In this document: one piece after another, positions 811 through 50,070 of the stretch
How the letters are laid out: each line of letters starts with the position of its first letter
How positions within the stretch are numbered: position 1 is the stretch's first letter
DNA from: Pseudodesulfovibrio profundus
Lineage (GTDB): Bacteria; Desulfobacterota; Desulfovibrionia; Desulfovibrionales; Desulfovibrionaceae
Assembly: GCF_900217235.1 (NCBI RefSeq)
Contig: NZ_LT907975.1
Coordinates: forward strand, 558,001-622,000
Direction: 5' to 3'
DNA: 64,000 nt
The notes under the pieces: model-generated
Databases searched by the model: none
Told to the model about the DNA's origin: nothing
What the model saw: the letters and a program-made list of their open reading frames with translations, nothing else
Made by a program: the position numbers and the translations under genes

Positions 811-843
811 TCCGACGCATCGGCCCCGGCTCCGGTAAGTAAG
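811..843 (+). promoter_or_regulatory. Bipartite promoter-like element, copy 1
   Basis: TCCGACGC at 811-818, a 15-bp spacer, then GGTAAGTAAG at 834-843. It begins three bases after the stop of the sigma-like gene and 70 bp before the next start. A hairpin (GCACC...GGTGC, about 843-861) follows immediately. Eight other copies in the window keep exactly the same spacer length. It would drive the replication operon. Promoter function is inferred from fixed spacing and position. Confidence 0.6.
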
Positions 844-912
844 CACCGTGCCGCATGGTGCGGCTATCCGGGGCCTCGGAAATCAGAACCTGAACAAAAG
901 AGGAGTTCAACC

Positions 913-1251
913 ATGACTCACGACACCTACAAGTACCGTTTTGACGAGTCGGTCCCGGCCCAGGAACTGGAAGACACTTTCATGCTGGCGATGCTGGCCG
1001 TCGAAAGCCTGCATGGCCGTTCCCGTGTGCGGATGGAGAGCCGGTTCAATTTGGACAAGGCCCGCCGTACCTGCGTGATCGACGCCTCCACCGATGTCGG
1101 CAGCGACCTCGCCCGCATTTTCACCGGTTTCGCCACCAAGGAATACGGCGAACGCTCGGTCCTGATCGAACGATCTCAGCCGACGGGCTGCGCCTGCGCC
1201 TCCAAACATCGCGCAGCGCCCGCCGCCGCTACAGCGGGGGTGGCGGTATGA
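913..1251 (+). CDS. Small conserved-looking phage protein, unknown function
   Basis: 112 residues, start ATG preceded by AGAGGAG. No family is recognised. The first 90 residues look like a compact globular domain with mixed charge; the last 25 are alanine-rich with CACASKH and may be disordered. It is the first gene after bipartite element 1 and overlaps the following nuclease gene by ATGA, so it is translationally coupled to the replication block. A role in replication or recombination is suggested only by this position. Confidence 0.6.
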   Translation: MTHDTYKYRFDESVPAQELEDTFMLAMLAVESLHGRSRVRMESRFNLDKARRTCVIDASTDVGSDLARIFTGFATKEYGERSVLIERSQPTGCACASKHRAAPAAATAGVAV

Positions 1252-2264
1252 GCGAGCTGATGACCACCACCTATTCCATGTGGCGGCTGTTCCGCAACTG
1301 CCGCATGGCCTGCAAGTGGCGCTACATCGACGAGCTGGTGCCGCTCGAGCGCGACCCCAATCTGGCCTTCGGCTCGGTCATTCACGATTGCCTGGAGTGC
1401 TGGCACGGCGAGCGGGATCTGGCCAAGGTCCTCGACCACATCGACCGGACCTATCCGAACCGGGCGCAGGACGATCATCAACAGGCCGACTGGCATCTCG
1501 CCCGAGCCATGATGAGCGCCTATGCGGAACACTACCCGGCTGAAGACTTCGAGGTCGTCGCGCTCGAAAAGACCTTCGAAGGTCCCATCGTCAACCCGGC
1601 GACCGGCGCGACCTCGCGCAGTTTCATTCTCGCCGGGAAGGTGGACGGCATCGTCCGTCAGGATGGCCAGTATTTCCTGCTGGAACACAAAACCGCCTCG
1701 CAGATCGATGCCAGTTACCTGGAGCGGCTGTGGACCGATTTCCAGATCATCCTCTACGCCTGGTACCTGGAGCAGACCCTCGGCATCACGGTCAGCGGCA
1801 TCATCTACAACGTCCTGGTCAAGGCCAAGCTGCGCCAGGGCAAGGGTGAAACCGAGGCCGAATTCGAGGCCCGCCGGGCGGAGCTGATCGCCAAGTCGAA
1901 AACCGGCAAGAGCAGCGCCAAGCGCAAGTTGCCCGAGGACGACGACACCTTCCAGCAGCGGCTTCAGGAGAAGTACCTCGAGCCGGGCATGTTCCACCGC
2001 GAGGTGCTCTACATCTCCCGCGACCAGTTCGAGGAACTGCGGGCGGAGCTGTGGGAACTCTCCAAGGCCATGCTCGACGCCCGTCGGCGCGACACCTTCT
2101 ACCGCAACACCAGCTACTGCTTCCAGTACGGAAGGCCCTGCGCCTACTTCCAGCTCTGCCGCTCGGGCGGCAACCCCAACGTCATCGAAAACCATTTCCA
2201 ACGGATCGCCCCGCACGAAGAGCTGCGGGACGGAGCCGGTGAAGACGCCGCTCCGGTGTTTTAA
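1248..2264 (+). CDS. PD-(D/E)XK nuclease, RecB/Cas4-like, with probable Fe-S cysteines
   Basis: 338 residues. The core motif of the PD-(D/E)XK superfamily is visible: an aspartate in GKVDGIV (about residue 131), then LLEHKTA (about 143-149) supplying E-x-K. Upstream, FGSVIHDCLE (about 43-52) looks like the RecB-family histidine motif. Two cysteines near the N terminus (18, 22) and three near the C terminus (about 291, 298, 304) resemble the split cysteine set that holds an Fe-S cluster in AddB and Cas4-type exonucleases. It probably resects DNA ends for phage recombination with the Sak4-like ATPase that follows. Overlaps the previous gene by ATGA. Whether all four ligands are present is inferred from spacing only. 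Confidence 0.75.
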   Translation: MSELMTTTYSMWRLFRNCRMACKWRYIDELVPLERDPNLAFGSVIHDCLECWHGERDLAKVLDHIDRTYPNRAQDDHQQADWHLARAMMSAYAEHYPAEDFEVVALEKTFEGPIVNPATGATSRSFILAGKVDGIVRQDGQYFLLEHKTASQIDASYLERLWTDFQIILYAWYLEQTLGITVSGIIYNVLVKAKLRQGKGETEAEFEARRAELIAKSKTGKSSAKRKLPEDDDTFQQRLQEKYLEPGMFHREVLYISRDQFEELRAELWELSKAMLDARRRDTFYRNTSYCFQYGRPCAYFQLCRSGGNPNVIENHFQRIAPHEELRDGAGEDAAPVF

Positions 2265-2289
2265 ATCCCAACCATAAGGAGACGAAGCC

Positions 2290-3060
2290 ATGCTTCCCAA
2301 GACCAAAAGCAAACCCAAACACACGCTCTCGGACCTCACCGCCCTGGTGTACGGCCCGAGCAAGATCGGCAAGAGCACCTGGTGTTCCAAGGCCGATGAC
2401 GCACTGTTCCTGGCGACCGAGCCGGGTCTGAACGCCCTGGAGGTGTTTCAGACCCCGATCACCTGCTGGGACGATCTTCTGCAAGCCTGCGCGGAAATCG
2501 CCGAGGGCAAGCACGAGTTCAAGACCATCGTCGTCGACACGGTGGATAACGCCTACAAGATGTGCTCGGACTACGTCTGCAAGAAATTCAAGATCGAGCA
2601 CGAGTCCGACCTGGGCTACGGCAAGGGCTACGCGCTGATCAACAACGAGTTCCAGCGCGTCATCAACAAGCTGGCCTTTCTGCCCTATGGGCTGATCCTG
2701 ATCTCCCACTCCCAGGAGCGGGACATCGAGACCCGGACCGGCAAACACACCCGCATCGTGCCGACGCTGCCGGAAAAGGCGCGGAAACTGGTCACCGGCC
2801 TGGTGGACCTGATCCTGTTCTGCGACCTGGACATGAAAACCGGCGAGGACGGCAAGCCTGTCTGGCAGCGCGTGATGCGCACCAAGCCCAGTCCCAACTA
2901 CGACGCCGGTGACCGCACCGGCCGACTCCCCGAAGTCATCCCCCTCGATTTTCCGAGCTTCATGAAAGCGTTCAACAACACGGCAGCCGGAGCTGCGGCG
3001 AGTGCCGCCCGGCCGAAGCCGGAGCCGACCGCGAGTGCGGCGGCGAAACCCCAACAGTAA
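2290..3060 (+). CDS. Sak4-like RecA-fold ATPase (phage recombination)
   Basis: 256 residues. Walker A GPSKIGKST (about residues 22-30) and a Walker B-like TIVVDTVDN (about 79-87) define a single RecA-type nucleotide-binding domain, as in the AAA_24/Sak4 group of phage proteins. The C terminus is an alanine/proline-rich tail. Sak4-family ATPases are known to support single-strand annealing or strand exchange, usually beside an SSB-like gene; the next gene fits. AAGGAGACGAAGCC precedes the start. Function is assigned from the motifs plus the gene neighbourhood (nuclease before, DUF669 and ERCC4 nuclease after). Confidence 0.75.
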   Translation: MLPKTKSKPKHTLSDLTALVYGPSKIGKSTWCSKADDALFLATEPGLNALEVFQTPITCWDDLLQACAEIAEGKHEFKTIVVDTVDNAYKMCSDYVCKKFKIEHESDLGYGKGYALINNEFQRVINKLAFLPYGLILISHSQERDIETRTGKHTRIVPTLPEKARKLVTGLVDLILFCDLDMKTGEDGKPVWQRVMRTKPSPNYDAGDRTGRLPEVIPLDFPSFMKAFNNTAAGAAASAARPKPEPTASAAAKPQQ

Positions 3061-3072
3061 GGAGATCCGACC

Positions 3073-3546
3073 ATGGAACACTACGAAAACCAATCCAACA
3101 GCAACCTCGACCTGGCGCAGTTCGACGACGCCTTCGAAACCGCCGAAGTCGAGGAGCGTGAGTTCGAGGCCGTTCCCGACGGCAAATACCAGGTCAACGT
3201 CGACCGGGTCGAACTGACCCGCGCCCAGACCTCGGGCAATCCCATGCTCAAGTGGACCCTGCGCATTCTCGCGCCGACCCACAAGGGCCGTCTGCTCTGG
3301 CGCAATAACGTCATGGCCAGCAATGAGAACATCAAGTGGCTCAAACAGGACCTCTACACCTGCGGGCTGCAGCTTCAGAAGCTCTCCGACCTGCCGGGCC
3401 ACCTTGAGCAGCTTCTCAACATCAAGCTGGAGGTGACCAAACGCACTCGCGGTGAAAACGAGAACATCTACTTCAACCGTCGCATTGTCATGGCCGACGA
3501 TGCCGGGGCTCCCGGCGCGGCGATGGACGACATGATCCCGTTCTGA
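3073..3546 (+). CDS. DUF669-like protein with an SSB-type C-terminal tail
   Basis: 157 residues. The middle (about 35-135), with KWTLRILAPTHKGRLLWRN and an IKWLKQDLYTCGL helix, matches the general look of DUF669 phage proteins that sit with recombination genes. The C terminus is acidic and ends in DDMIPF, almost the DDDIPF tip by which bacterial SSB recruits partner enzymes. I infer a single-stranded-DNA-binding role in the recombination/replication complex. It follows the Sak4-like gene by 12 bases with a good AAGGAG site, and its stop overlaps the next start by one base. Confidence 0.65.
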   Translation: MEHYENQSNSNLDLAQFDDAFETAEVEEREFEAVPDGKYQVNVDRVELTRAQTSGNPMLKWTLRILAPTHKGRLLWRNNVMASNENIKWLKQDLYTCGLQLQKLSDLPGHLEQLLNIKLEVTKRTRGENENIYFNRRIVMADDAGAPGAAMDDMIPF

Positions 3547-4028
3547 TGATGGACCGGATCACCGTTGTCGTCGACACCCGCGAACAGGAGCCCTACAGCT
3601 TCGATAGTGACAAGGTTTCGGCGGTTCGCAAGGCGCTGCCCGCCGGTGATTACTCACTGGTCGGCCTTGAGGAACGGGTGGCGGTGGAGCGCAAATCCCT
3701 GACGGATTTCGTCTCCACCGTCATCCGGGGGCGAAAGCGGTTTCACCGCGAGCTAGAAAAGCTCTCCGCCTACGAATCCGCCTGCGTGGTTGTCGAGTGC
3801 AACTTTCGCGATCTGGTCGATGGCCGCTACCGCAGCGATGCCCACCCGCATGCGCTGATTGGAACGGTCGCCTCCATCGTCGTCGACTTCGGTGTCCCCG
3901 TCTACTTCTGCTCGGACCGGCAGGCCGCCTGCCGTTTTGTCGAGGAGTACCTGACACGTTTTCACCGGAGGATCGCGAGATGCCAAAAAGAAATGAGAGT
4001 AACCCGGCGCGACTCCGGGGAAGAATAG
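3546..4028 (+). CDS. ERCC4-type nuclease
   Basis: 160 residues. VVVDTREQEPY (about residues 7-17) and VERKSLTDF (about 46-54) give the D...E-R-K-x3-D signature of the XPF/MUS81 ERCC4 nuclease fold, so the metal-binding active site appears intact. There is no helix-hairpin-helix at the C terminus, so this is a stand-alone nuclease domain, as often found in phage replication modules, where it may process branched DNA. Two adjacent ATG codons compete as the start; the first overlaps the previous stop. The 3' end overlaps the next gene by 49 bases. Confidence 0.75.
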   Translation: MMDRITVVVDTREQEPYSFDSDKVSAVRKALPAGDYSLVGLEERVAVERKSLTDFVSTVIRGRKRFHRELEKLSAYESACVVVECNFRDLVDGRYRSDAHPHALIGTVASIVVDFGVPVYFCSDRQAACRFVEEYLTRFHRRIARCQKEMRVTRRDSGEE

Positions 4029-6208
4029 AGCGCGTTTACTATGCCGGACCCAAGTTTTCCGCAGGCCGACTGCTCACCCCGACCGGTGAGGAAGTCCAGT
4101 TCGCGGGCAATTTGTTCGCCCGGGAAAATCAGCCTGTGGTCCTGCTCGGGTCGTGGTCCACCCATCCCAAATACGGCCGTCAGTTCAAGGTCGACGGCAT
4201 GGAGCACGATCTCGAACTCGATCCGGAGGGGCTGATCCACTATCTGGCTAACCATCCGGAGATCAAGGGCATTGGTCCGGCCAAGGCCAGATTGATCGTC
4301 GAGAGTTTCGGCGACGCCTTTGAAGAAACCCTTCTGAATGACCCCGAACGCATCGCGCTCAAGGCTCGACTGCCTCTGGACGCGGCCCGGCGGCTGCGTG
4401 ACGAATGGTTGAAGAACCGCAGCGTCAACACCGTCATGGCCTGGCTGTCGGCATTCGGCCTGACCCATCATCAGGTCACCACTCTGGTCGAAAGACTCGG
4501 CGGCAACTGCCTCGATATCCTGAAGGAAGACCCGTACATCCTCATTCGGGAGATCCGGGGATTCGGCTTCAAGAAGGTCGACAAGATTGCCCGCAAGCTG
4601 GGCACACCCAAGGACCACGTTCCCCGTATCCGGGCCGGTCTGCTGTTTTGCATCCGTGAAGCCCTGGACAATGGCCACTGCTGGATCGAATACGAGGATC
4701 TGGTCGACCAGGCCAATCTGCTGCTGGTCATGGATGCCCTGGACAGCCGGGTTCGTATCGAGAGCGCCCTCGATGCGCTCATCGGAGAACAGGCGCTTGC
4801 CTGCGATTCCCACGGCGGACGTTTCGTGGTCGCTCTGCCGGAGATCGTCCGCATGGAGCGGGAGCTGGCTGCGCTGTTCGGCCAAGCCGAAACACCCAAT
4901 CCGCATTTCCATTCCATCAAAAAACTCGACGCCCTGATTCGGCGCTGCGCAGCGACGCTGAACGAGAAGCAGCTTGAAGCGGTGCGCTCGGCCCTCCAGC
5001 ACAGCATCAGCCTGATTTCGGGTGGAGCCGGTTCGGGCAAGAGCTACACCATTTCGGTCATCAACACGATCTGCGAGGAGAGCGATCTGGAGGTCGTGCT
5101 CGCCGCACCGACCGGCAAGGCAGCAAAGCGCCTGGAAGAAGTCAGCGGTCGCAGCGGCACCACCATCCACCGCCTGCTCGGCTATGACGGCAAGGGTTTC
5201 TCGCGTAGCAAGGAGAACCCCATCGATGCCGATGTTCTGGTGGTAGACGAGTTTTCGATGGTCGACGTGCCGCTGGCCTGGCACCTGTTCGAGGCGGTTG
5301 ACCTGTCGCGGACCACGGTGTTGTTGGTCGGAGACCACAACCAGCTTCCGCCGGTTGGGCCAGGAAACATCTTGCGTGATCTGATCCAGACACGCGCCAT
5401 TCCCACGGTCATCCTCGACAAGGTCGTGCGTCAGGCTGGCGTCCTCAAGGAGAACTGCACCGCCGTTCTCAAGGGCGAGGTGCGCAAGACCAGCGAGGCG
5501 TCAGTATCCGGATGCCGGGATTGGTATCTGGTGGATCAGTTTACCGATCCGATGGCGGCACGCTCGTTCCTGCTGGAGCTGTTTCAGGAGCGGCTCGATG
5601 CCCTGGGTTTCGACATCATCAAGGACGTGCAGGTGCTGACGCCGACCCACAAGGGTCCGCTCGGCACCAAGGAACTGAACGAGGAACTGCAGCGGCTCAT
5701 CCAGCGCAAGCTCTGGAACACAGAGGTGCCGCCGGTCGCCATGGGCCGCCGCGCTCCGTTTCTCAAGCACGACAAGGTGATCCAGACCCGGAACAACTAC
5801 GACCTGAACGTGATGAACGGTGCTATCGGCTATGTGGTCGATGTCCTCGCGAACGGCACCTTGGTCATCGATTTCGACGGCATGCCGGTGGAGCTGGAGA
5901 AAGGGTCGCCCGACCTTCAAGACCTGCAGCTCGCCTATGCGCTCACCATTCACAAAACCCAGGGTTCCGAGTTCCCCTGCGCCGTGGTGGTGGTCCACAA
6001 GGCACATTCCTTCATGCACCACCGCAATCTGCTCTACACCGGGGTGACCCGCGCCCGGCGCACCGCCATTGTCCTGGGTGATCACTGGGGCATCCAGAAC
6101 TGCGCCAAGCGGTGCCAGGTGGATGACCGCCGGACCTTCCTGCCCCTGTTCCTGGACGCCGCCCAGCACGCGGAAGACGACTTCGCCCGTGTCGCGGAGG
6201 CCGAATGA
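3980..6208 (+). CDS. RecD2-like superfamily 1B DNA helicase
   Basis: 742 residues. An N-terminal beta-rich region is followed by helix-hairpin-helix KGIGPAKARLIV (about 96), then the motor: Walker A GGAGSGKS (about 347), Walker B VLVVDEFS (about 418), motif III GDHNQLPP (about 451), motif V IHKTQGSE (about 657) and motif VI LYTGVTRAR (about 685). This order and length match RecD2 5'-3' helicases. It probably unwinds DNA in phage replication or recombination. The start ATG is chosen over an earlier in-frame one because CCGGAG lies nine bases upstream and the N terminus then matches a sensible domain start. It overlaps the ERCC4 gene and couples by ATGA to the primase. Confidence 0.8.
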   Translation: MPKRNESNPARLRGRIERVYYAGPKFSAGRLLTPTGEEVQFAGNLFARENQPVVLLGSWSTHPKYGRQFKVDGMEHDLELDPEGLIHYLANHPEIKGIGPAKARLIVESFGDAFEETLLNDPERIALKARLPLDAARRLRDEWLKNRSVNTVMAWLSAFGLTHHQVTTLVERLGGNCLDILKEDPYILIREIRGFGFKKVDKIARKLGTPKDHVPRIRAGLLFCIREALDNGHCWIEYEDLVDQANLLLVMDALDSRVRIESALDALIGEQALACDSHGGRFVVALPEIVRMERELAALFGQAETPNPHFHSIKKLDALIRRCAATLNEKQLEAVRSALQHSISLISGGAGSGKSYTISVINTICEESDLEVVLAAPTGKAAKRLEEVSGRSGTTIHRLLGYDGKGFSRSKENPIDADVLVVDEFSMVDVPLAWHLFEAVDLSRTTVLLVGDHNQLPPVGPGNILRDLIQTRAIPTVILDKVVRQAGVLKENCTAVLKGEVRKTSEASVSGCRDWYLVDQFTDPMAARSFLLELFQERLDALGFDIIKDVQVLTPTHKGPLGTKELNEELQRLIQRKLWNTEVPPVAMGRRAPFLKHDKVIQTRNNYDLNVMNGAIGYVVDVLANGTLVIDFDGMPVELEKGSPDLQDLQLAYALTIHKTQGSEFPCAVVVVHKAHSFMHHRNLLYTGVTRARRTAIVLGDHWGIQNCAKRCQVDDRRTFLPLFLDAAQHAEDDFARVAEAE

Positions 6209-9200
6209 GTATGGGCGGAACGGATAACGTCAGGGAGTACTATCGGCTCGTCACCGAGATGGACATCGGTGAGGTGGGCCGGGAACTCCTGCCGGGACGG
6301 ATCACCCAGGAGACCGGCCAGCGCTTGATGTGTGACTGCCCCAATCATCAGAGCCAGTCTCGTCTGTCGCTGCACGTGATGCTCGACAAGCAGGGCTGGT
6401 ACTGCTTCGGCTGCGGGGTCGGCGGCGACGTGCTGCAGCTCGTGGAGTTCATTCAGACGGGCTCGGTCACCGCCGGACAATCTGGTCCGATGCCGGACAG
6501 CCACCGCCAGGCCAGGGACTATCTCGCCAAGAAGGCGGGCTTGCCGCCGCTGTCGCGCTATGGCCTCAGCCAGGAGCGTCTGGCCCAGACAGAGGCCGAC
6601 CGTGCCTTCGAACTGAGGGTCAAGGACGCGCTGACCGCGCTGGCCAGGCTTTACCATGCCAGGCTCAAGGAGTCGCCAGAGGTCCTCGACTGGCTGAAAT
6701 CCAAATACGCCCTGAGCGAGGAGACCATCGACGATATCCTGATCGGCTACGCGGACAACGCGTCCGGCGCGGTCGCCCAACTGACCGGGGGTGAAGACGG
6801 CTTCTCCAAGCGGGAGCTCGCCGCCACCGGCGCTTTCCGCCCCACGAGCCAGGACGGCCTGACGCCATTTTTCGAGCGCCGCATCGTCTTTCCCTACTGG
6901 AGCCGTGGCCGGGTGGTGTTCATGATCGGCCGTAAAACGCCGTGGACCCCGGACGTGGGCTGGGAGCAAGGGAAATACAAGAAGCTGCCGGTTCACGACG
7001 AGCACCAGCGACCCTACGTCGCCGATTTCATCAACAACGCGCTGCTGTTCAACGAGGACTGCCTGCTCGCCAGGCCCGGCAAGGTGATCATCACCGAGGG
7101 GGTGACCGATTGCCTGGCGCTGATGCAACTGGGCCTGCCCACCGTATCTCCGGTCACCGTCCGCATCCGGGCCGCCGATTGGGAGCGCCTGATCCCCAAG
7201 CTGCGCGGCGTCGAAACAGTCTATATCTGTCAGGACAACGAACTCTCCCAGGCCGGTCTCAAAGGGGCGCTGCAAACCGCTCGCACCCTGGCCGAACACA
7301 AGATCGACACCCGCCTGGTGACGCTGCCCTTGTCGGAGACACAAATCTCGGCCCGGCAGGAGCTGACCGAACGCTTTGGCCTGACGGCGAGCGTGGGGCC
7401 GAAGGAGCTGGCCAAGCTGCTGGCGGGACGGCCCGTCGAAGAGATTCAGGCGGCCGAGGCGCTTCTCGCCACCGCCAAGATCGACGTCAACGATTACATT
7501 GCCGCCGGGCATACCCGGGAGGATTTCGAACGCCTGCTCGCCGAAGCCAGCACGCCCATCGAGTTCGGCGTGCGCTCGCTGCCCGAGGGCGCTGAAGAAG
7601 AGGAGCGCAACCGCCTGCTCGAGCCGATCCTCGGGGAGATTTCCGAGCAGTCGCCGCTGGAACAGGCCCGCCTGCTGAAGCTTGTGCAGGAGCGCATCGG
7701 CGGTGGCGTTTCGATGGCCACCCTGAAAGAGCAGATCCGCGCCATCCAGAAGGACCGCAAGGTCGAGTTCCGCAACGAAAAGAAGAAGGCCAAGCGGATG
7801 TCCGGCGCGATGCCCGGATCATGCCGCGCCCGGGTCGACGAGGTGCTGATCGACACGGAACTGGAGAACGGCGCTCCCGACTACACACTGGCCGCCGAGG
7901 CCGCTTACGACTGGTTCACCGCCAACGGTGCCCAGTTCTTTCACACCCTGCAGGGCGAGCCGTTCATGTATTTCGACAACGCCATCTACTGGATGGATTC
8001 GCCGGACCGGGGCCGCAAACGCCATTACGCGGCCATGCTCTACAAGCACACGGGCATGGTGCCGACCTCCAACGGCGGACGGACATTTTTCGAGGTACTG
8101 CCCAGCCTGGCGATGATCCGTGGCCAGGTGCGCGACCATTTTTCCTGGCTGCACACCGATGTGGCTTCCTACACCGTCTATTTCAACCTGAACAATCCGG
8201 AGCACGAGATCGCCAAGATCACCCCGGACGAGATTCAGATCATGAAGAACGGCGGCAACGAGGACGGCATCATCCTGGATGGCTCGCGCAAGATGAAGCC
8301 GCTGAAATTCCTGCCCGATGCCGACCTCGAAGAGGCGGACCGGCTTCTGGTCGATCTGCTGGTGGGCAACATGACCTGTCCGCAGGGGGATCGCTTTCTC
8401 ATCCTTTCCTGGCTCTCCTGTTTCCTGCTGATCGACTTCGCCGGGACGCGGCCCATGACCCGCTTCGAGGGTTCGGCCGGATCGGGCAAGACCACCGCCA
8501 GCAAGATCACGTCGACGCTGCTTTACGGCGAGCCCCAGCACAAGAAAGCCACCGACGCGGCGAACTACACCGATGGCTCGCAGAACCCGCTCATCGTCCT
8601 CGACAACATCGAGGTCAAGCAGATGACCGAGGATCTCACTACCTTCATGCTGACCAGCATCACCGGCATCGCCAAAGAGAAGCGCAAGAGCGGCACTGAC
8701 AGCGAGACCATCACCGAGCGGACCAAGTGCCTGCTGAACACCACCGGCATCGAGCCGCTGTGCGGAGAGCTTTCGGAGATCCTGTCGAGGTCCTTCGTCA
8801 TCAACTTCGACCTGGCTAACCAGGCCAGCGACTGCTTTCTAGAGTCGGAGGTCATCTCCGCCATCCAGCAGAACCGGGACCTGATCATCTCGGCCATTAT
8901 GAAGCGGACCAGCCATGTGTTGGCGATGATCCGGGACGGAGCCCAGAAACAGGTCATGCGCCTGCTGCACCGAACCATGCCGACCCATGGCAAGCGCCGG
9001 TGCAACGATTATCTGAGCCTGATGTACCTGATGATGCTGGCCGGGTCCGAGGAACACGAGGTGACCACCGGACTCGAGGATCTGAGCCCGCTGTTCATCG
9101 AGCAGATCCATTCCATCAACGACACCAGCCAGGAGATGGCGCGGGAGTCAAACCCCATCGCAACGGCGCTGGCATCGCTCTTCCATTCCTACCGGAACGC

Positions 9201-9516
9201 GGTGGAGCTGGACGAGAAAGCCCGCTACGGCGAGGACGACCGGGCAAACCACGTGGTGGGGTTCATCGAACGCTACCAGGTGAGGTTCGAGAACGAGAAC
9301 ACCATGGAGCCGGTGTCGGCGGGACGGCTGCTCGCGGCGCTGCGCAGGGTCGGCCGGGAATTCAACCTCGAATTCGAATACAAGAAGCCCGCCCAGCTCG
9401 GTCGGCGCATCAGCAACGACCTGGACGTCATCCGGGACGCCGGGTTCGACATCGACCGGCAGCGCAACGCCCACACCAAGAACTTCGAGTACCGCATCGG
9501 CTGCAGAGGTGTTTAA
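6205..9516 (+). CDS. Primase-helicase: zinc finger, TOPRIM and C-terminal ATPase
   Basis: 1103 residues. A CHC2-type zinc site (CDCPNH near residue 43, CFGCG near 67) leads into a DnaG-like primase with TOPRIM motifs VIITEGVTDCLAL (about 294) and YICQDNE (about 341). A long linker is followed by a P-loop ATPase with Walker A GSAGSGKTT (about 756) and LIVLDN (about 796). It should prime and perhaps unwind DNA at the phage origin. The ATPase half is not an obvious DnaB RecA core and looks more like a superfamily 3 or AAA-type motor; that is uncertain. It overlaps the helicase gene by ATGA and ends the replication operon. Confidence 0.75.
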   Translation: MSMGGTDNVREYYRLVTEMDIGEVGRELLPGRITQETGQRLMCDCPNHQSQSRLSLHVMLDKQGWYCFGCGVGGDVLQLVEFIQTGSVTAGQSGPMPDSHRQARDYLAKKAGLPPLSRYGLSQERLAQTEADRAFELRVKDALTALARLYHARLKESPEVLDWLKSKYALSEETIDDILIGYADNASGAVAQLTGGEDGFSKRELAATGAFRPTSQDGLTPFFERRIVFPYWSRGRVVFMIGRKTPWTPDVGWEQGKYKKLPVHDEHQRPYVADFINNALLFNEDCLLARPGKVIITEGVTDCLALMQLGLPTVSPVTVRIRAADWERLIPKLRGVETVYICQDNELSQAGLKGALQTARTLAEHKIDTRLVTLPLSETQISARQELTERFGLTASVGPKELAKLLAGRPVEEIQAAEALLATAKIDVNDYIAAGHTREDFERLLAEASTPIEFGVRSLPEGAEEEERNRLLEPILGEISEQSPLEQARLLKLVQERIGGGVSMATLKEQIRAIQKDRKVEFRNEKKKAKRMSGAMPGSCRARVDEVLIDTELENGAPDYTLAAEAAYDWFTANGAQFFHTLQGEPFMYFDNAIYWMDSPDRGRKRHYAAMLYKHTGMVPTSNGGRTFFEVLPSLAMIRGQVRDHFSWLHTDVASYTVYFNLNNPEHEIAKITPDEIQIMKNGGNEDGIILDGSRKMKPLKFLPDADLEEADRLLVDLLVGNMTCPQGDRFLILSWLSCFLLIDFAGTRPMTRFEGSAGSGKTTASKITSTLLYGEPQHKKATDAANYTDGSQNPLIVLDNIEVKQMTEDLTTFMLTSITGIAKEKRKSGTDSETITERTKCLLNTTGIEPLCGELSEILSRSFVINFDLANQASDCFLESEVISAIQQNRDLIISAIMKRTSHVLAMIRDGAQKQVMRLLHRTMPTHGKRRCNDYLSLMYLMMLAGSEEHEVTTGLEDLSPLFIEQIHSINDTSQEMARESNPIATALASLFHSYRNAVELDEKARYGEDDRANHVVGFIERYQVRFENENTMEPVSAGRLLAALRRVGREFNLEFEYKKPAQLGRRISNDLDVIRDAGFDIDRQRNAHTKNFEYRIGCRGV

Positions 9517-9609: not shown

Positions 9610-10956
9610 ATGATAGTCAGTTTCTCACTCGAAAACTGGATGTCCTTCCGCAACCAGGTCACATTTTCGATGGTCGCCAGCAGGGAGCGCCAACATGGAG
9701 ACAGGGTTCCCAAGCTCGGCAAGTACCAGACGAGAGTTCTTCCGGTTGCGGCAATTTATGGCGGCAACGCGTCGGGCAAGACCAATTTTTTCAAGGCCCT
9801 GAGTTTCGCCAAGGCGCTGGTCGTCAAGGGCACCCAGCCCGACAGCCTGATTCCTGTCGAGCCGTTCCGGCTGGACGCCAAGGTGGCCGATCAGCCGTCA
9901 CGGTTTGGCTTCGAGCTGCTGATCGACGAGATCATTTACGAGTTCAGCTTCGCGGTGACCCGCAAGGCGGTTCTGGAAGAGAAGCTGGTGGTCATAACCA
10001 GCACCAGTGAAAAGGTGCTCTACCACCGTCGGGACGGAAAGCCCAACTTCGATGATTCCCTGGCCAAGGACCAGTTCCTCCAGTTCGCCTTCAAAGGGAC
10101 CCGGGACAACCAACTCTTTCTGACCAACTCGGTCTCCCAGAAGGTCGACAATTTCCGGCCGGTCTACGACTGGTTCAAGGACACGCTCGAGCTGGTCGCG
10201 CCCGATTCCCGCTTCGAGCCTTTCGAGCAGTTCCTCGACGAGGGGCATCCGCTCTACTCGACCATGAACGAGATGCTGCCGCAACTCGACACCGGCATCG
10301 CGCATCTGGGCGGCGAGGAGATCCCTTTCGAGAACATTCCGTTGCCCGAGCCACTGAAGACCAAGCTGCAGGAAGACGTCAAGGAAGGCATGACCGTTCG
10401 TCTGCTGACCGAGCCGATCAACGAACGATTCGTGGTGACCCGCAAAGGTGGTGAATTGATCGCCAAGAAGCTGGTGACCTATCATCCGAAGGCGGACGGC
10501 ACGGAAGCCAAGTTCGAGATCCGCCAGGAGTCGGACGGCTCACAGCGGGTGATCGATCTGCTGCCCGCGTTTCTTGAGCTGTCGGCCCAGGTCTCGAAGA
10601 AGGTCTACGTGATCGACGAGGTCGACCGTAGCCTGCACACGCTGCTGACACGCAGATTGCTCGAAGCGTACCTCGCCAATTGCTCCACGGAAACCAGAAC
10701 GCAGTTACTGTTGACCACCCATGACGTGCTGCTCATGGATCAGCAACTGCTGCGCCGTGACGAGATGTGGGTAGCCGAAAGAGACGCCACCGGAGCTTCG
10801 AACCTGCTCTCTTTCAGCGAGTACAAGGATGTCCGGTACGACAAGGACATTCGCAAGAGCTACCTGCAGGGACGACTGGGTGGAATTCCCCGGATTCTGT
10901 TGGGAGGCGCTTTGACCAATCCCTGCCTCACCGAAGAAAGTGAGGGGGATGACTGA
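9610..10956 (+). CDS. RloA/AbiLi-like AAA15-family ATPase (defence)
   Basis: 448 residues. The start [15 protein letters not shown] is typical of the SMC/ABC-like AAA15 ATPases of anti-phage systems. Walker A is [10 protein letters not shown] (about 51-60); the distal ABC half has [18 protein letters not shown] (about 334, Walker B) and TTHD (about 370, H-loop). Partnered with the RloB-like gene that overlaps its stop (TGATG), it matches RloA-RloB and the AbiL pair, where the ATPase senses infection and controls an effector. AGGAG lies eight bases before the ATG. It sits behind its own host-type promoter, so it is a phage-borne defence module that may exclude rival phages. Confidence 0.75.
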
Positions 10957-11552
10957 TGCCACCGAAGAGACGCAGATTCCAGAGACCCCTTGGCGAGCGT
11001 CGCTACCGCAAACTGTTCGTGATCGCGGTGGAAGGCGTGAAGACCGAGCCGCAGTATTTCGCCATCTTCAATGACCAGCAATCGGTGATCCGGGTGAACT
11101 GTCTCAAAGGTAGCCATGATAGCTCCCCGCCACAGGTACTGAAACGGATGGAGGACCATCTCCGGCAGGAGGAGCTGAGATCCTCCGACGAAGCCTGGCT
11201 CGTGGTGGACAAGGATCAGTGGACCGACGAACAGTTGGACCAGCTTCATGCCTGGGCTCAGGCACGCAACAATTACGGTTTCGCCCTCAGCAACCCCAAG
11301 TTCGAATACTGGCTGCTGCTTCATTTCGAGGACGGCACCGGCATCGCATCGTCACGGGATTGCAGCGACCGGCTGAAGCGGCATCTTCCCGGTTACGACA
11401 AGGGGATCGACGCACGCAAGATCACCCGCGACCGAATCGATGAAGCCATCCGCCGCGCCAGGCTGCGCGACAATCCTCCTTGTGCCGACTGGCCACGAGC
11501 CCTTGGCGGCACCACGGTTTACAAGCTGGTCGAAAACATTCTCCAGGTCTGA
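10956..11552 (+). CDS. RloB/AbiLii-like effector, TOPRIM-like
   Basis: 198 residues. AVEGVKTEPQYF (about 24-35) and LVVDKDQW (about 82-89) give the E...DxD pattern expected of a TOPRIM-like metal site, and NPKFEYWLLLHFE (about 113-125) is characteristic of the RloB family, which includes the abortive-infection protein AbiLii. By analogy with AAA15 plus TOPRIM pairs such as PARIS and OLD-like systems, it is likely the toxic nuclease-type effector activated by the upstream ATPase. The start overlaps the upstream stop, and a strong terminator follows 30 bases after its stop. Confidence 0.7.
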   Translation: MPPKRRRFQRPLGERRYRKLFVIAVEGVKTEPQYFAIFNDQQSVIRVNCLKGSHDSSPPQVLKRMEDHLRQEELRSSDEAWLVVDKDQWTDEQLDQLHAWAQARNNYGFALSNPKFEYWLLLHFEDGTGIASSRDCSDRLKRHLPGYDKGIDARKITRDRIDEAIRRARLRDNPPCADWPRALGGTTVYKLVENILQV

Positions 11553-12905: not shown

Positions 12906-13184
12906 GTGAAGAAAAAGAAACGCTACGCCAACGCCAAGGATGTCCTGCCCGAGGAACTCTTCGAGCAGATCCAGAAGCACTACACCGGAATTCTCTGGGT
13001 CCCGGCACCGAGCCGGTTTTACCAGGAACGTCGCGACCTGGTGCTTGCCCTTCATCTGCAGGGGATCAGCAGCCAGGAGATCTCCAACCTCGCCGGTGTG
13101 ACCACCCGCCGGGTCAATCAGATCATCGCCGCCGAACGAAAACAGGATCGGGACCGACAGTTTAGCGCCGCTTCCGGTAAGTAA
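12906..13184 (+). CDS. Small helix-turn-helix regulator (CD3324/Mor-like)
   Basis: 92 residues with a GTG start preceded by GGAGG. A lysine-rich start leads to DVLPEELFEQIQKHYTG, then a helix-turn-helix EISNLAGVTTRRVNQIIAAE (about 60-80). The layout resembles CD3324-like proteins and the C-terminal domain of Mor-type phage activators. It may control the packaging or late genes just downstream. Its stop codon is the TAA inside GGTAAGTAAC of bipartite element 3, so promoter and coding sequence overlap and constrain each other. Confidence 0.65.
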   Translation: MKKKKRYANAKDVLPEELFEQIQKHYTGILWVPAPSRFYQERRDLVLALHLQGISSQEISNLAGVTTRRVNQIIAAERKQDRDRQFSAASGK

Positions 13185-38344: not shown

Positions 38345-41300
38345 ATGAACGGCGATCTCGGACTGGGCATAGTGGTATCGATGAAGGATGCGTTCTCGCA
38401 GAACGCGCAGCGCATCCGTGGTTCCATGATGGACCTCGATTCCACCGTGGCCGATGCCAGCGAGCGGATGACCCGCAACATGGACCGCATCCAGCAAGGC
38501 ACCATGATGCTGGGGGCGGGTTTGGCCCTGATGGCCGCGCCCGCAGTTCTAGTCGCCTCCACCGCCGCGACCCAAAAGGCCCTTGGCGAGCTGGCGTCCC
38601 TCGGCGTGCAGGACCTCCGGGCCATCGAGGACGCCGCCGAATCCTTCACCAACCAGTGGTCCGGTGCCGACAAGGCCGCTTTCATCACCGCCACCTATGA
38701 CGTGAAATCGGCACTGTCCAACCTGAGCGACGAGGCCGTGGGTGTTTTCACCTCCATGGCCGCAATGACCGCAAAGGCAACCAAGGCCACCACCCAGGAA
38801 ATGGTCGGCACCTTCACCACGGCCTACGGGATATTCAAGCCCATCATGGCCGACATGAACGACATGGAATGGGCGACCGCCTTTTCCGGAGCCATGGCGC
38901 AGACCGTGGCCTCGTTCAAGACCAACGGCACCCAGATGGCCGACGCCATCAAGAACATCGGCGCGGTGGCGGCTGCGAGCAACATTCCGCTGAACGAGCA
39001 GCTCGCCGTGCTTGGCCAGCTTCAGACCACCATGCCCGGCTCCGAGGCGGGCACGCTGTACAAGGCGTTCATCATGAAGGCGGCCGAGGCCGGGGACGAG
39101 CTGGGGCTGTCCTTCACCGACACCAGCGGCCGTCTCAAGGGCGTGGTTCCCATCCTGCAGGAGATCAAGCGCCAGTTCCCCGACCTCTCCAACGCCGCCG
39201 CCCAAGTGAAGCTGAAGAAGGCCTTCGGCTCCGACGAGGCGGTCAAGTTCCTGCTACAGATGTCGGCGGGCATGGAGAGCCTCGAAGGCAATATCCAGTC
39301 GGTGGGCCGAGCCATGAAGACCGGCACGGCGGTCACCGAACAGATGGCCGACGCCATGAACCAGGACATCGGAGCCCGGTTCCTGCTTCTGCGCCAGCAG
39401 ATGGCCAACCTCAGCGAAATCCTGGGTCGCACCTTGTTGCCGGTGGTCACGCCGGTGATCAACGGCGTCTCCCGCGTCATTCTGTTCCTGCAGCGCATGG
39501 CCAAATCGATGCCGGGCGTGACCCGGGTGGTCCTTGGACTATCCATGGCCCTCGGCACCATTCTGGTCGTGGCCGGAGCCGTCACCGCCGCCGTGGGCAT
39601 GGTGGGACTCATGCTGCCCGCCATCAAGGCCGGGTTCGTGGCCATCAGCGCCGCGCTCGCCGGGGTGGGTTCGGCGGTTGCGACCTATTTTTTGCCCGTC
39701 ACCGCGATCATCGCGGGCGTGATCTTGTCGGTATATCTGCTCAAACGTGCCTGGGAAACCAACTTCGGCGGCATTCAGGAAATCATCACCGGGGCCTGGA
39801 ACAAGGTCTCGCTGGTCTTCCAGGGGATCAGAGAGCTGGTGGGTTCGCTCAGCGGCGGCGTCGGGCAGATGTCGGCCGAACTGGCCCAGAAGCTCGAATC
39901 CGCCGGGCTGTTGGGCTTCGTGGTCACCGTTTTCAAGGCCTATTACCGGGTTCGTGAGGCCATGGCCGGATTGTGGGGCGCTTTTTCCCATGCCTTTGAC
40001 CGCATCCGCGCCATCCTCGAACCCACCGTCCGCACCCTGATGAGTGCCTATGCGGCGCTGGCCAGCGCAGTCTTTTCGGTGGTGGAGATCTTCGGCGTGG
40101 CCGCCAGCGCCACCGATGGGTCGTCCTGGCGCACCTTCGGCACGGTTATCGGCATCGTCGCCGGTGTGCTTCTGCAGGGGTTGGCGTTCGCGCTGAAGAT
40201 CGTGGCCTGGAACCTGTCGCTCATCGTGCGAGCCCTGGCGGTGGTGGTGCGCAGCGTGGGCTGGGTCGGCAAGGCCATCGTCGGATCACTGATCGGAGCG
40301 ACCAAGTTCATCTACAAGTTCCTGTTGCCTGTGCGCATGATCGGCGAGGCCTTCATGGCCGCCGGGAAGATCGTCTATGCGGTCTGGCAGGTGCTGAGCG
40401 GCGACATCTCCCTGCTGGACGGTCTCAAGGCCATCGGCGGCGCGGTCTACGATTTTCTTGCCACCCCGTTCCGCTGGGCGCGGGATGTGGTGGTCGGGGT
40501 CTGGAATTTCATTTCCGGGATATTCACCTCCATCGGACGCCTGGTGGCCGACGCCGCTGGACAGATCGGCCAGGCGATTCTGAATCTGCCGATTATCAGC
40601 ACCCTGCGTGAGCTGTTTGCCACCGTGCGCTCCTTCTTCGCCGGGGACACCACCTTCTTCGAGGCGGGCAAAAAGCTGCTGATCACCCTGGGCGAAGGGA
40701 TCTGGTCGGCGGTGACCTATCCCTTCACCATGCTCAAGAACGCCCTGGGCAAGCTGCGCAATCTGCTGCCGTTCTCCGATGCCCGCGAGGGACCACTCGC
40801 CAGCCTGACCGCCTCCGGTTCCGCGCTGCTCAAGACCCTTGCCGACGGCATGAGCCTTACCCAGTCGCTGCCCGCGAAAGTGTTCGGCTTCGCCACTCGC
40901 GGGATTCTCACAGCCGCTGCGGGAGCCTGGCAGCAGATCAAGACGGCGGGCGGCAACCTCATGGACGCCGCCTCGGCTCCCTTCCGCATGGCTGGAAAAC
41001 TCTGGGATGGGTTGACCTCCGGGGCTCAAACCGTCGCGGCCAAGGCCGGTGCCATCTTCGGCGGTCTCAAACAATCCCTGTTTGGCGACACGCCCGTATT
41101 GGCGCTCAAACCGCCCCAGGTCAATGCTTGGGACGCGCTGGCCACGGGAGCCGTCAATCTCCGCAACCGGATCGTTGCCACGCTGTCGGCCGTCCCCGGC
41201 GCTGTCGGTCGAATCTTTGCCAACGCCGGTGCCGAGGGGCAAACCCTCTGGCAGAGGCTTTCCAGTGGCGCGAGCGCGGGCATTCAGGCGATCAAGGATC

Positions 41301-41980
41301 GCAGTGCCGGGATCGCCAACGGTTTGCTCTCATCCGCTCGCGCCATGCTGGGAGTCCAGACCCCGATTCTGCAGGTGGCCGAGCAGAAGCAACCGCTCGA
41401 GACCGTGCAGCCCGCTGAATCGATTGGGCAACGCATCATCGAAAGCGTGCTGAGTCTCGTGCCGCGTCTGGACGAGCGCCTGGTGCTCAAGGCCCTGAGC
41501 GCCATGCTGATGCTCCAGCCGGTCATGGCCACTGCCGCGCCGCCTCCGCAACCGATGAACGGCCTCGTGCAGACCGTCGCGGCGGCCGTCGAGCCGGTAA
41601 GTAAGAGCTATATCCAGCCGTTCGCGGTGGAACCGGCACTGGAAAACGGAGATGCCTCTCTGGCTCCGGCCGGGATCGAGCGGCCCAAGACAACCGCGCC
41701 GACTCCGATAGCGAAGCCCTTGCAATCGGGACTCGCCGAGACAGTGCCTTCCGAGCGGTTGATCGCTCCGGCTCGCACCGCTCCCGCGACACCCATGCAC
41801 GGAGAGGACGCCGGTCCGGGGCTGCGCGAACTGCTGGAATCGCTGCTCTCGCGCCTCAATGGCTTGGCCGACCGACCGGTGGAACTGAGCGTGACCACCA
41901 ACATCGATGGCCGGAAGGTGGCCGAGGCCGTCTACAAGGATCTTCGGGAGCGGAAGATCAGAAACTACGAAACCCTTTGA
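38345..41980 (+). CDS. Tail tape measure protein
   Basis: 1211 residues, the longest tail gene. The first about 350 residues carry the TP901-type tape measure domain (SMKDAFSQNAQRIRGSM, VAAASNIPLNEQLAVLGQL), followed by long hydrophobic and helical stretches (about 380-700) and an alanine/proline-rich C terminus. It sets tail length and is ejected with the DNA. Near its 3' end a copy of GGTAAGTAAG lies at 41596. Confidence 0.85.
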   Translation: MNGDLGLGIVVSMKDAFSQNAQRIRGSMMDLDSTVADASERMTRNMDRIQQGTMMLGAGLALMAAPAVLVASTAATQKALGELASLGVQDLRAIEDAAESFTNQWSGADKAAFITATYDVKSALSNLSDEAVGVFTSMAAMTAKATKATTQEMVGTFTTAYGIFKPIMADMNDMEWATAFSGAMAQTVASFKTNGTQMADAIKNIGAVAAASNIPLNEQLAVLGQLQTTMPGSEAGTLYKAFIMKAAEAGDELGLSFTDTSGRLKGVVPILQEIKRQFPDLSNAAAQVKLKKAFGSDEAVKFLLQMSAGMESLEGNIQSVGRAMKTGTAVTEQMADAMNQDIGARFLLLRQQMANLSEILGRTLLPVVTPVINGVSRVILFLQRMAKSMPGVTRVVLGLSMALGTILVVAGAVTAAVGMVGLMLPAIKAGFVAISAALAGVGSAVATYFLPVTAIIAGVILSVYLLKRAWETNFGGIQEIITGAWNKVSLVFQGIRELVGSLSGGVGQMSAELAQKLESAGLLGFVVTVFKAYYRVREAMAGLWGAFSHAFDRIRAILEPTVRTLMSAYAALASAVFSVVEIFGVAASATDGSSWRTFGTVIGIVAGVLLQGLAFALKIVAWNLSLIVRALAVVVRSVGWVGKAIVGSLIGATKFIYKFLLPVRMIGEAFMAAGKIVYAVWQVLSGDISLLDGLKAIGGAVYDFLATPFRWARDVVVGVWNFISGIFTSIGRLVADAAGQIGQAILNLPIISTLRELFATVRSFFAGDTTFFEAGKKLLITLGEGIWSAVTYPFTMLKNALGKLRNLLPFSDAREGPLASLTASGSALLKTLADGMSLTQSLPAKVFGFATRGILTAAAGAWQQIKTAGGNLMDAASAPFRMAGKLWDGLTSGAQTVAAKAGAIFGGLKQSLFGDTPVLALKPPQVNAWDALATGAVNLRNRIVATLSAVPGAVGRIFANAGAEGQTLWQRLSSGASAGIQAIKDRSAGIANGLLSSARAMLGVQTPILQVAEQKQPLETVQPAESIGQRIIESVLSLVPRLDERLVLKALSAMLMLQPVMATAAPPPQPMNGLVQTVAAAVEPVSKSYIQPFAVEPALENGDASLAPAGIERPKTTAPTPIAKPLQSGLAETVPSERLIAPARTAPATPMHGEDAGPGLRELLESLLSRLNGLADRPVELSVTTNIDGRKVAEAVYKDLRERKIRNYETL
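41573..41605 (+). promoter_or_regulatory. Bipartite promoter-like element, copy 7, inside the tape measure gene
   Basis: ACCGTCGC at 41573-41580, 15-bp spacer, GGTAAGTAAG at 41596-41605. Six of eight left-box positions match TCCGACGC at the shared spacing. It lies within coding sequence, 384 bp before the DUF4406-like gene. It could feed the hub genes or be chance. Confidence 0.35.
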
Positions 41981-43065: not shown

Positions 43066-43098
43066 TCCGACACCTCGCCATGCCTTCCGGTAAGTAAG
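43066..43098 (+). promoter_or_regulatory. Bipartite promoter-like element, copy 8
   Basis: TCCGACAC at 43066-43073, 15-bp spacer, GGTAAGTAAG at 43089-43098. A small GCAG/CTGC hairpin (43098-43109) follows, then CCGGAG as ribosome site; the start codon is 30 bp away. Confidence 0.6.
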
Positions 43099-48209: not shown

Positions 48210-48221
48210 CGGAGGCTGTCC

Positions 48222-49109
48222 ATGATTTCCGAAGAACCCGCCGATTTGCAGGCCACCATCGAACAGACCGATTCCGGAGAACAGCAGTATGTGCTACGGG
48301 CGCTCTGCGATCACCTGTCCGGCATCCGTGAGGAGCTTTCCGGCATCCGCACGCTGCTGGAGGCCGGTCACGCCGCCTCGGAGGCGATGCGTGGCCAGGC
48401 CCAGGCCTATCTGGAGGCCCAGCAGGCCAAGACCCAGGAGTATTTGGATCAGGTACAGGTCGAGCCGGAGCCCGATTTCTATCCCTTCGTCGAACTGCCT
48501 GCGGGCACCGAACCCAGGGATCTGCCGGACGGCAACCGGTTCTTCACCTTGCCCGACGGCATGATCCTGCGGACCACGGACGACCAGCGAATCTGCGTTA
48601 TCGACGGAGGGGAACAGCAGGTCATCACCCCCGGACCCGGCACGGCCATCGAGGTCGCCCCGGGACGCCTCTACACCCTGGTCGAGTCCTATCTGCGTTC
48701 GACCCAGGAGGCAGCCGGTATCAGCGGACTGCCTGCCGGGATCGAGCCGACCGCAATGGGCGCGGAACGCTTCGCGGTGGTTCTGCCCGAGGGCATCCGT
48801 CTCGACGTCGATCACCGGGAGCGGTTTATCAGCCTGATTAATCCGGCCGGGCCAATCGACATCATCGGCATCGGCCGTATCGAGGGCATCGGTGAAACCA
48901 TCGCCGTCCGTTTGCTCTCCGGCGGAGCCAAGGGATTCCAGTGCGGCCAGTCCGGCCACGGCGGGCTGATCGAGGCGGACGGCACCATCCATCTGGGACT
49001 CAAGAGCGGTCTGGATCTGGTGGTCCGGTTCCAGGGAGAAGCTATCGACGACAGTTCGGAAAATGGCTGCTCAGGTCAATGCGGCATCGACTGCGAGGAG
49101 CGTACCTGA
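48222..49109 (+). CDS. Unknown baseplate-region protein
   Basis: 295 residues. A helical N terminus (EELSGIREELSGIRTLLEA has an internal repeat of ELSGIR) leads into beta-rich sequence (FVELPAGTEPRDLPDG, ERFAVVLPEGIRLDVD) with two similar halves, ending in a Cys-rich CSGQCGIDC. No family is recognised. It overlaps the gp25-like gene start by one base. Confidence 0.6.
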   Translation: MISEEPADLQATIEQTDSGEQQYVLRALCDHLSGIREELSGIRTLLEAGHAASEAMRGQAQAYLEAQQAKTQEYLDQVQVEPEPDFYPFVELPAGTEPRDLPDGNRFFTLPDGMILRTTDDQRICVIDGGEQQVITPGPGTAIEVAPGRLYTLVESYLRSTQEAAGISGLPAGIEPTAMGAERFAVVLPEGIRLDVDHRERFISLINPAGPIDIIGIGRIEGIGETIAVRLLSGGAKGFQCGQSGHGGLIEADGTIHLGLKSGLDLVVRFQGEAIDDSSENGCSGQCGIDCEERT

Positions 49110-50026
49110 TGAGCTATGACTTTCTCGGCAAGGGATTGCGCTACCCGTTCCGGTTTCAGTCGGTATCCGGCGGCACCCAGATTTCGACCGCCACCTCGCG
49201 GGAGCACGAGCATATCCGCGAAAGCATCCTGCAGATCCTCGGCACCCGGATCGGCGAACGGTTCATGAATCCGGAGTTCGGCTCCCGGCTGAAGGATCTG
49301 GTGTTCGAACAGAACGACGAGGTGCTCAAGGGCCTGCTGCGCCATTACGTGATCGACGCCATCAAGCGCTGGGAAAAGCGGGTGATCATCACGGAGGTGC
49401 GCTTCGACGACCGGCCGCTGAACATCGACGGCAATCTGCTACTGGTACATATTGCCTACCGGGTGATCCAGAGCCAGGTTGACGGCAACCTGGTCTATCC
49501 CTTCTACAGAGAAAACCCGAACAATCCCGCGCCCAGCTATCCCCAGCCGGAGCCCGAGCCGGAACCGCCGCCGGTGCGCACAGTGCGCCTGTCGCCGGAC
49601 GTGCGCTCGCTGTTTAATCTGCTCTGGTTCGACGCGGCCGAGATGAGCCCCGATCCGGACGATTCCTTCATCTGGCCAGCGGGAGAATACGAAGTCACCT
49701 ACATCGAGGGAGCCTTTCAGGACCGCAACGGCAAGTGGATTGTCAGCGATCCGGGTGACAACCACGGCCATTATCTGGTCTTCGAGGGAGCGCCCGAAAC
49801 CGAAGCGCCCCAGGCCGAGCACGCCCTCTATTTGGCCGCGAGCGGTCTGGGCTTCGACACCCAGAGTCAGGCGGAAGACAACGCCGCTGGCACCGTTCAC
49901 CGGATCACCACCCTGGAGCCGGGCCGCATCGGTCTGTTCTATTTCGAGGGCAAGAAGGAATCCCACTACCTCAACAACACCTCCGGGCAGCCCAATCCCG
50001 TCTGGCAACTGCGCGGCCCGATCTGA
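49109..50026 (+). CDS. Baseplate wedge protein (gpW/gp25-like) with C-terminal extension
   Basis: 305 residues. The first about 130 residues are gp25/gpW: FLGKGLRYPFRF, HIRESILQILGTRIGERFMN, PEFGSRLKDLVF. A proline-rich linker (PQPEPEPEPPP) joins an about 170-residue extension without a known family. Wedge gp25 starts sheath assembly at the baseplate. Element 9 follows after the stop. Confidence 0.85.
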   Translation: MSYDFLGKGLRYPFRFQSVSGGTQISTATSREHEHIRESILQILGTRIGERFMNPEFGSRLKDLVFEQNDEVLKGLLRHYVIDAIKRWEKRVIITEVRFDDRPLNIDGNLLLVHIAYRVIQSQVDGNLVYPFYRENPNNPAPSYPQPEPEPEPPPVRTVRLSPDVRSLFNLLWFDAAEMSPDPDDSFIWPAGEYEVTYIEGAFQDRNGKWIVSDPGDNHGHYLVFEGAPETEAPQAEHALYLAASGLGFDTQSQAEDNAAGTVHRITTLEPGRIGLFYFEGKKESHYLNNTSGQPNPVWQLRGPI

Positions 50027-50037
50027 GGCTGCCCGCC

Positions 50038-50070
50038 TCCGACACATCCAGGTCCCTTCCGGTAAGTAAC
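50038..50070 (+). promoter_or_regulatory. Bipartite promoter-like element, copy 9
   Basis: TCCGACAC at 50038-50045, 15-bp spacer, GGTAAGTAAC at 50061-50070. A perfect 8-bp hairpin GCGAGAGC/GCTCTCGC (50078-50100) follows within eight bases. The gpJ-type gene starts 56 bp downstream. Confidence 0.65.

Follow-up and report, generated by a model that had tools for sequence, protein, structure and literature searches.

Copies of a two-box element in the window

We analysed a stretch of 64,000 nucleotides from Pseudodesulfovibrio profundus (positions 558001-622000 of contig C1, in a 4.2-Mb genome), referred to here as the window. It lies within the second of two tandem prophages and carries a repeated two-box DNA element, the first copy of which stands directly after the gene of a phage-encoded sigma-like factor. 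The initial annotation had listed nine copies, all on the plus strand and with 15 bp between the boxes, as a likely phage promoter family; all nine are present at the positions below, with that gap and on that strand (9/9). When the constant bases beside box 2 are added to the original pattern, the element reads CCGWC-N15-CCGGTARGTAA. The copies and the genes around them are as follows.

224-808, plus strand: phage-encoded extracytoplasmic function (ECF)-like sigma factor, 194 aa, regions 2 and 4; directly before copy 1
811-842, plus strand: copy 1, predicted promoter with a start near 848-849; next called gene at 913
913-1251, plus strand: 112-aa gene after copy 1, without a Pfam match
1248-9516, plus strand: replication and recombination genes behind copy 1 (exonuclease, Sak4-like, SSB, ERCC4-type nuclease, helicase-like, primase)
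12060-12091, plus strand: copy 2; next ATG at 12132 (from the list of open reading frames, ORFs); genes of unknown role behind it
13153-13184, plus strand: copy 3; next called start at 13276 (GTG); genes of unknown role behind it
18093-18124, plus strand: copy 4, between terminase (16561-18084) and portal (ATG at 18160); ahead of the portal and head genes
29230-29261, plus strand: copy 5, ahead of methyltransferase and major head genes (29318)
34625-34656, plus strand: copy 6, after a neck-type gene (stop at 34621) and ahead of genes leading to the sheath (34681)
41573-41604, plus strand: copy 7, inside the tape-measure gene (38345-41980) and upstream of a baseplate gene; also in the other prophage
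43066-43097, plus strand: copy 8, ahead of tail and baseplate genes (43128)
50038-50069, plus strand: copy 9, ahead of baseplate wedge genes (50126)

A crude gene caller marks 92.9% of the window as coding but leaves seven of the nine copies wholly intergenic. The initial annotation had placed eight copies at operon boundaries, which holds only if copy 3 is counted, since this copy overlaps a doubtful 92-aa ORF whose stop codon is the motif's own TAA; copy 7 is intragenic. For eight of the nine copies a start codon follows 19-86 nt after the predicted transcription start. A search of both strands of the window with GGTAAGTAA, allowing up to one mismatch, gave nine matches, all of them the copies above, whereas dinucleotide shuffles of the window averaged 1.56 matches and never exceeded 5. 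In 692,641 bases, made up of the two prophages and of loci picked by their sigma gene and not by the motif, CCGWC stands at the one expected distance from 49/49 distinct GGTARGTAA boxes. A site matrix built from pattern-selected sites is informative in the spacer and flank columns only.

The left ends of the prophages, separated by 88 kb, are at about 462,699 and 550,859; that of the first prophage overlaps a transfer-messenger RNA (tmRNA) gene at its 3' end. The aligned pieces of the two prophages are 94-96% identical. Each prophage has ten copies of the element, nine on the plus strand and one on the minus strand. The tenth, minus-strand copy (C1:554239-554269) is about 3.7 kb left of the window and approximately 4.5 kb before the sigma-adjacent copy. 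Beyond these 20 copies a whole-genome search at up to one mismatch found no motif in the 4.2 Mb, so the predicted promoter element is repeated ahead of phage operons and is absent elsewhere in the host at this threshold. Between the two prophages the boxes differ at 0/160 positions, and the spacer and flanks at 44/750 (Fisher p 3e-4).

The sigma factor

The annotation had also pointed to a sigma-like gene right before copy 1, and its 194-aa product does match phrog_1740 (sigma factor) with an E-value of 4.6e-25. The Pfam matches to Sigma70_r2 (7.8e-5) and Sigma70_r4_2 (1.6e-5) fall just below the curated cut-offs (22.8 against 24 bits and 24.9 against 25.7 bits). A profile of 48 relatives matched RpoE and the ECF factor SigE in the PDB (8.8e-6). 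The AlphaFold2 model has a predicted local distance difference test score (pLDDT) of 78 and a predicted template modelling score (pTM) of 0.43; a Foldseek search with it returned ECF sigmas among the top matches (E approximately 6e-4), with low whole-chain template modelling scores of 0.27-0.35. PHROG, the PDB profile and the fold thus agree on a sigma-like phage protein with both regions 2 and 4, and the model is consistent with the two-domain sigma2-sigma4 fold of ECF sigmas. The protein resembles bacterial ECF sigmas such as RpoE and SigH, its best PDB matches, in two-domain size and predicted fold. The -35 element of ECF sigmas is of the GGAAC type, however, and the boxes described here are different.

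Sigma gene and element occur together

We surveyed 297 genomes of the window's class, accepting sigma matches at E<=1e-10. The exact motif is found in 18/297 genomes and the sigma in 17/297, and 14 genomes hold both (Fisher p 6e-18). Where the sigma is at least 90% identical, all 13 of the 13 genomes carry at least four copies, and 276 of the 280 genomes without a sigma match are motif-free. Two genomes without a match (G124 and G191) have a single copy each. The same boxes at a gap of 17 bp occur in 0/297 genomes, and the pattern read backwards gives one match in each of 2/297. In a scan of viral contigs, at least 120 stretches had the element at N15 and 12 at N18 (one match each).

Three genomes have a sigma of 42-43% identity and no exact motif. 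We examined their loci together with a second sigma locus of a fourth genome, and in all four CCGAC-N15-CCGGTACGTAT stands 2 nt past the sigma stop codon. Each locus has two more copies, with box 2 as CCGGTATGTAT, inside 18-19 kb.

Sigma genes 97-98% identical to that of the window were seen in Desulfo- genera and in the gammaproteobacterium Ectothiorhodospira shaposhnikovii (L169-L178; L171 is E. shaposhnikovii). This could reflect a very broad host range or recent transfer, or else a stray contig. Two cultured species, Desulfosarcina alkanivorans and Desulfofustis glycolicus, also have the sigma gene.

The element in diverged sigma lineages

The sigma gene is followed by the element in 16/16 close viral relatives and in 17/18 genome relatives, the 17 reaching down to 43% identity and the exception being L188; two relatives with truncated genes were excluded from the latter count. 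A broader profile yielded 98 relatives, of which the best 80, including 64 new ones, were kept, and clustering at 90% identity gave 53 representative lineages. For the diverged loci we used a scoring matrix made only from the ten sites of our own prophage. The site near the sigma stop codon was ranked first in 21/52 loci and among the top ten in 34/52; for random windows the figures were 76/10,400 and 470/10,400. Altogether, a two-box element with a 15-bp gap was assigned at the sigma gene end in 49/53 lineages, down to 31% identity with the sigma of the window.

The boxes have diverged between lineages (for example CGCATATGTAG in L236 and TGCAAAGGTCT in L238 and L244). A lineage's own variant boxes recur in the same contig at N15 34 times, in 22/49 loci (26 times without the window), and at N13, N14, N16 and N17 only 1, 2, 0 and 0 times. 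The variants of other lineages gave 10.5 matches on average, and those differing by at least three bases gave 2.9. Boxes at separate sites of one genome thus change together, an effect that a shared trans-acting reader would have. ORFs whose start resembles that of the gene at 913-1251 (like MTKELYRYSF) were seen by eye to come after the element in many lineages.

Predicted transcription start and co-change of boxes and residues

The two-box gap fits a -35/-10 arrangement. Purines are conserved 6-8 nt past box 2, at positions 37, 38 and 39 of 37/49, 45/49 and 44/49 sites. We also carried out an exploratory, tree-aware analysis of co-change between box 2 and the sigma protein, covering 2,134 pairs. 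Base 28 of box 2 changes with R67 (p 2e-6) and base 22 with E78 (p 5e-4); residue 78 is E in 23/28 cases with C and R in 20/20 cases with G. Two further pairs are base 23 with residue 74 and base 30 with residue 63. All four residues (67, 78, 74 and 63) are in helix 61-83 of the sigma model, which accounts for 6 of the 20 best box 2 pairs where 2.4 would be expected (p 0.024). The pairs are also in collinear order (Spearman -0.87), although this was examined after the helix had been chosen. By eye, bases of box 1 seemed to match the region 4 helix cleanly (Y175 with A at base 4 in 25/27; R176 with G at base 1 in 8/9), but we have not relied on this match because it is unremarkable in the tree-aware test.

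The element as a probable promoter of a phage-encoded sigma factor

Taken together, the comparisons strongly support the promoter family and phage regulon suggested in the initial annotation: element and sigma co-occur, the element keeps its position at the gene end with an unchanged gap, and the boxes of one contig change jointly. We consider it very probable that a phage-encoded, ECF-like sigma factor, acting with the host core RNA polymerase, uses the element as its two-part promoter. Box 1 (tCCGACAc) would serve as the -35 element, with region 4 of the sigma presumably making the contact, and region 2 would read box 2 (CCGGTARGTAA) as an extended -10 element. A conserved purine 6-7 nt past box 2 would be the start of transcription. 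Sigma would redirect the host core polymerase to the ten promoters of each prophage; those facing right would drive the replication, packaging, head, tail and baseplate genes, and the leftward one a DUF2924/serine-recombinase pair. A promoter in the reverse orientation was considered and rejected, as the boxes would face away from the gene starts.

Several observations weigh against this explanation. Of the genomes without a sigma match, G268, which is 82% complete, has two copies, and G214 has seven, spread over two contigs. The sigma gene of L188, 35% identical, is not followed by the element, and no element was assigned in 4/53 loci (L188, L202, L225 and L245); six of the 49 assignments were made by eye. 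With the matrix, 18/52 loci have no site in the top ten, and some of these misses arise because the element overlaps the gene end, beyond the scanned stretch. Copy 7 (41573) is about 300-380 nt ahead of the next start. Of the four box 2 pairs only base 28 with R67 would survive correction for 2,134 tests; base 22 with E78, like most single pairs, would not. Co-change of box 1 with the region 4 helix is not enriched (1 pair among the 20 best where 2.9 would be expected), and base 31 changes unexpectedly with Y175 (p 8.7e-6), which is ill-suited to simple contacts.

The best surviving alternative is that the boxes are promoters at which a phage activator or a host sigma acts with the host RNA polymerase, the sigma neighbour being coincidental or auxiliary. 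The annotation had described the element as unlike any standard sigma-70 promoter. This is true mainly of box 2, because box 1 (CCGACA) shares 4/6 bases with the -35 hexamer TTGACA, a likeness that would suit the alternative, as would the presence of further operon-leading genes of unknown function. However, the element tracks the sigma gene down to 31% sigma identity, is almost absent from genomes without the sigma and was not found, at up to one mismatch, in the host chromosome outside the prophages, and the sigma has both DNA-reading regions. We regard this alternative as improbable.

Less probable still is a role as repressor-binding stoperators that silence the prophage. The stoperators of mycobacteriophage L5 are asymmetric intergenic sites that are oriented with transcription and silence the prophage, and the many asymmetric sites seen here, between genes and co-oriented with transcription, resemble them. 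This reading is at odds with the two boxes, their fixed 15-bp gap and 31-bp span, with the predicted starts 19-86 nt ahead of a start codon for eight of nine copies, and with the conserved purines at the expected start; moreover, the likely repressor operator is a different palindrome beside a LexA-type DNA-binding protein. We give even less credence to an RNA-level leader element (processing, antitermination or translation control). The sites are just ahead of operon heads and hairpins are conceivable in some leaders (judged by eye), but no pairing between the two boxes is apparent by eye, much of the spacer is unconstrained, and reading at the DNA level would account better for the fixed gap and for the link to a sigma gene. 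That the repeat arose by chance or copying and has no function is the least probable reading; nothing was found in its favour, and it can be set aside in view of the 0/160 box changes between prophages against 44/750 around them, the 49/49 boxes at one gap and the co-occurrence with sigma.

A possible LexA-type switch upstream of the sigma gene

A candidate early control region precedes the sigma gene and falls outside the window.

L015:14296-14614: divergent early control region, with a sigma-70-type promoter-like site, a LexA-type palindrome and a protease-less LexA DNA-binding domain

The promoter-like site, TTGACC-17-TATATT, is close to and divergent from the minus-strand copy of the element, and the palindrome GACCTGAT-ATTC-ATCAGGTC sits within it. 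A single site of this type is no more than chance (mean 1.5 in shuffles). The first gene behind it encodes a lone LexA DNA-binding domain of 77 aa (E 4.7e-13). The only other perfect genomic copy of the palindrome precedes the gene of a 250-aa protein with both LexA domains (DNA-binding domain, 6e-13; peptidase S24, 3e-33). The minus-strand element was found by pattern in 16/23 relatives scanned, and 14 of these 16 keep the palindrome or a variant of it; in L169 and L170 the palindrome is a different one, as an exchange of immunity would produce.

These data point to a possible sigma-70-type early promoter, with an operator of the LexA type, ahead of the sigma gene. The likely order of events is that an SOS-like switch leads to synthesis of sigma and that sigma then activates the ten promoters. 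On induction, the early promoter would give rise to sigma by read-through of approximately 3.9 kb.

A related arrangement in Wolbachia phage WO

A tblastn search of 50,697 phage records with three sigma queries gave matches only in Wolbachia phages (seven, seven and one records). The WO homologue is approximately 25% identical to the sigma of the window. We examined WO stretches from seven records, of which four were covered partly. Both WOVitA1 records and the wMel phage have three elements each of the form GGAC-N14/15-[TC]CGTRYATATA, positioned behind the sigma gene and at the heads of modules; none appeared in 50 shuffles of one WOVitA1 record or in 50 of the wMel stretch. WOVitA4 has two elements. 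WOVitA2 and sr1WOdamA have three each of GGAC-N15-CTTGTATAT, whereas the copy after their sigma gene has GAAC for GGAC. The Allonemobius record has a weaker variant. WO is like the window phage in having a distant sigma homologue and two-box elements beside the sigma gene and at module heads. In contrast, box 2 of WO is AT-rich (for example CCGTGTATATA) and the gap is 14 or 15, not strictly 15.

In the accessible text of a WO survey, Kent et al. tie a sigma-70-like gene to replication and do not use the word 'promoter', and the same 2011 survey calls the typical regulators of the lysogeny module unidentified (PMC3173496). The portion of a Wolbachia Cappable-seq study available to us describes sigma-70-like motifs and a TAAAAT motif, with no sign of lytic WO entry under heat (PMC12558409).

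The same pairing of sigma and signal, slowly co-changing, thus appears from sequence comparison to exist in dozens of other phages, including WO of the insect symbiont Wolbachia. We lean slightly towards a broader reading, in which an old family of sigma-promoter pairs extends from Desulfobacterota prophages to WO. Such a family would have split into many specificities while keeping a gap of approximately 15 bp and a promoter behind each sigma gene, so that the pairing of sigma and boxes could be read directly from the DNA; a simple residue-to-base code (base 22 as C with E78 and as G with R78; base 28 as G with R67) would run along the helix that reads the -10 element, and the lytic modules of WO would be run by sigma.

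Comparison with known phage sigma factors

The mechanism proposed here is of a known type. In the accessible text of PMC8948821, the sigma SaPh711_gp47 of Salmonella phage 7-11 acts with the host core at GTAAtg-(16)-aCTA, upstream of late genes, with eight promoters and starts 6-9 nt from the element. Phage 7-11 is described as lytic in the part of PMC4331800 seen. The likeness lies in a phage sigma (here proposed) working with the host core and in a bipartite promoter-like element ahead of phage operons. The boxes here are different, however, the prophages have ten copies each, and the first copy comes directly after the sigma gene. The sigma family is also different as far as tblastn tested, since no record of 7-11 or phiEco32 was matched by the three sigma queries among the 50,697 phage records.

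For phiEco32, the same source, as far as seen, describes gp36 as the sigma for middle and late genes, with starts 6-8 nt after a single-element promoter, tAATGTAtA, and says that gp36 lacks homology with region 4 (PMC8948821). Here, in contrast, both boxes and both sigma regions are present. Compared by eye with the consensus in the available part of that paper, the sites and matrix of the window match neither GTAAtg-(16)-aCTA nor tAATGTAtA.

No account of this sigma-promoter family was found in the literature searched, in which subscription papers are thinly covered. The family is apparently undescribed, and it is unusually broad and readable. The analysis supplies a predicted promoter and a candidate regulator for a widespread, mostly uncultured phage group, and a testable control scheme for WO. 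As a predicted promoter stands beside each sigma gene, there would be a ready set of matched sigma-promoter pairs, useful for learning how sigmas choose DNA and for orthogonal expression tools.

Other genes of the prophage

Some genes near copies of the element are specific to the second prophage. Genes for a P-type cation ATPase and a phosphotransferase system (PTS) EIIA-like protein (25188-28411, minus strand) are just upstream of copy 5, in a stretch of approximately 4 kb (25141-29160) that is missing from the first prophage. A pair of AAA_21 ATPase and RloB-like genes (9610-11552, plus strand) is about 0.5 kb upstream of copy 2; this stretch of approximately 2 kb has no aligned counterpart in the first prophage and looks like defence cargo.

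The prophage has two integration-type enzymes, an internal tyrosine integrase (14377-15291, minus strand) and a serine recombinase (L015:11706-13292, minus strand), the latter near the left end of the prophage and left of the minus-strand motif. It also encodes a 700-aa protein with a QueC match (L015:15426-17528), an amidoligase and a glutamine amidotransferase (window 58814-61088), which possibly form a DNA or nucleotide modification set.

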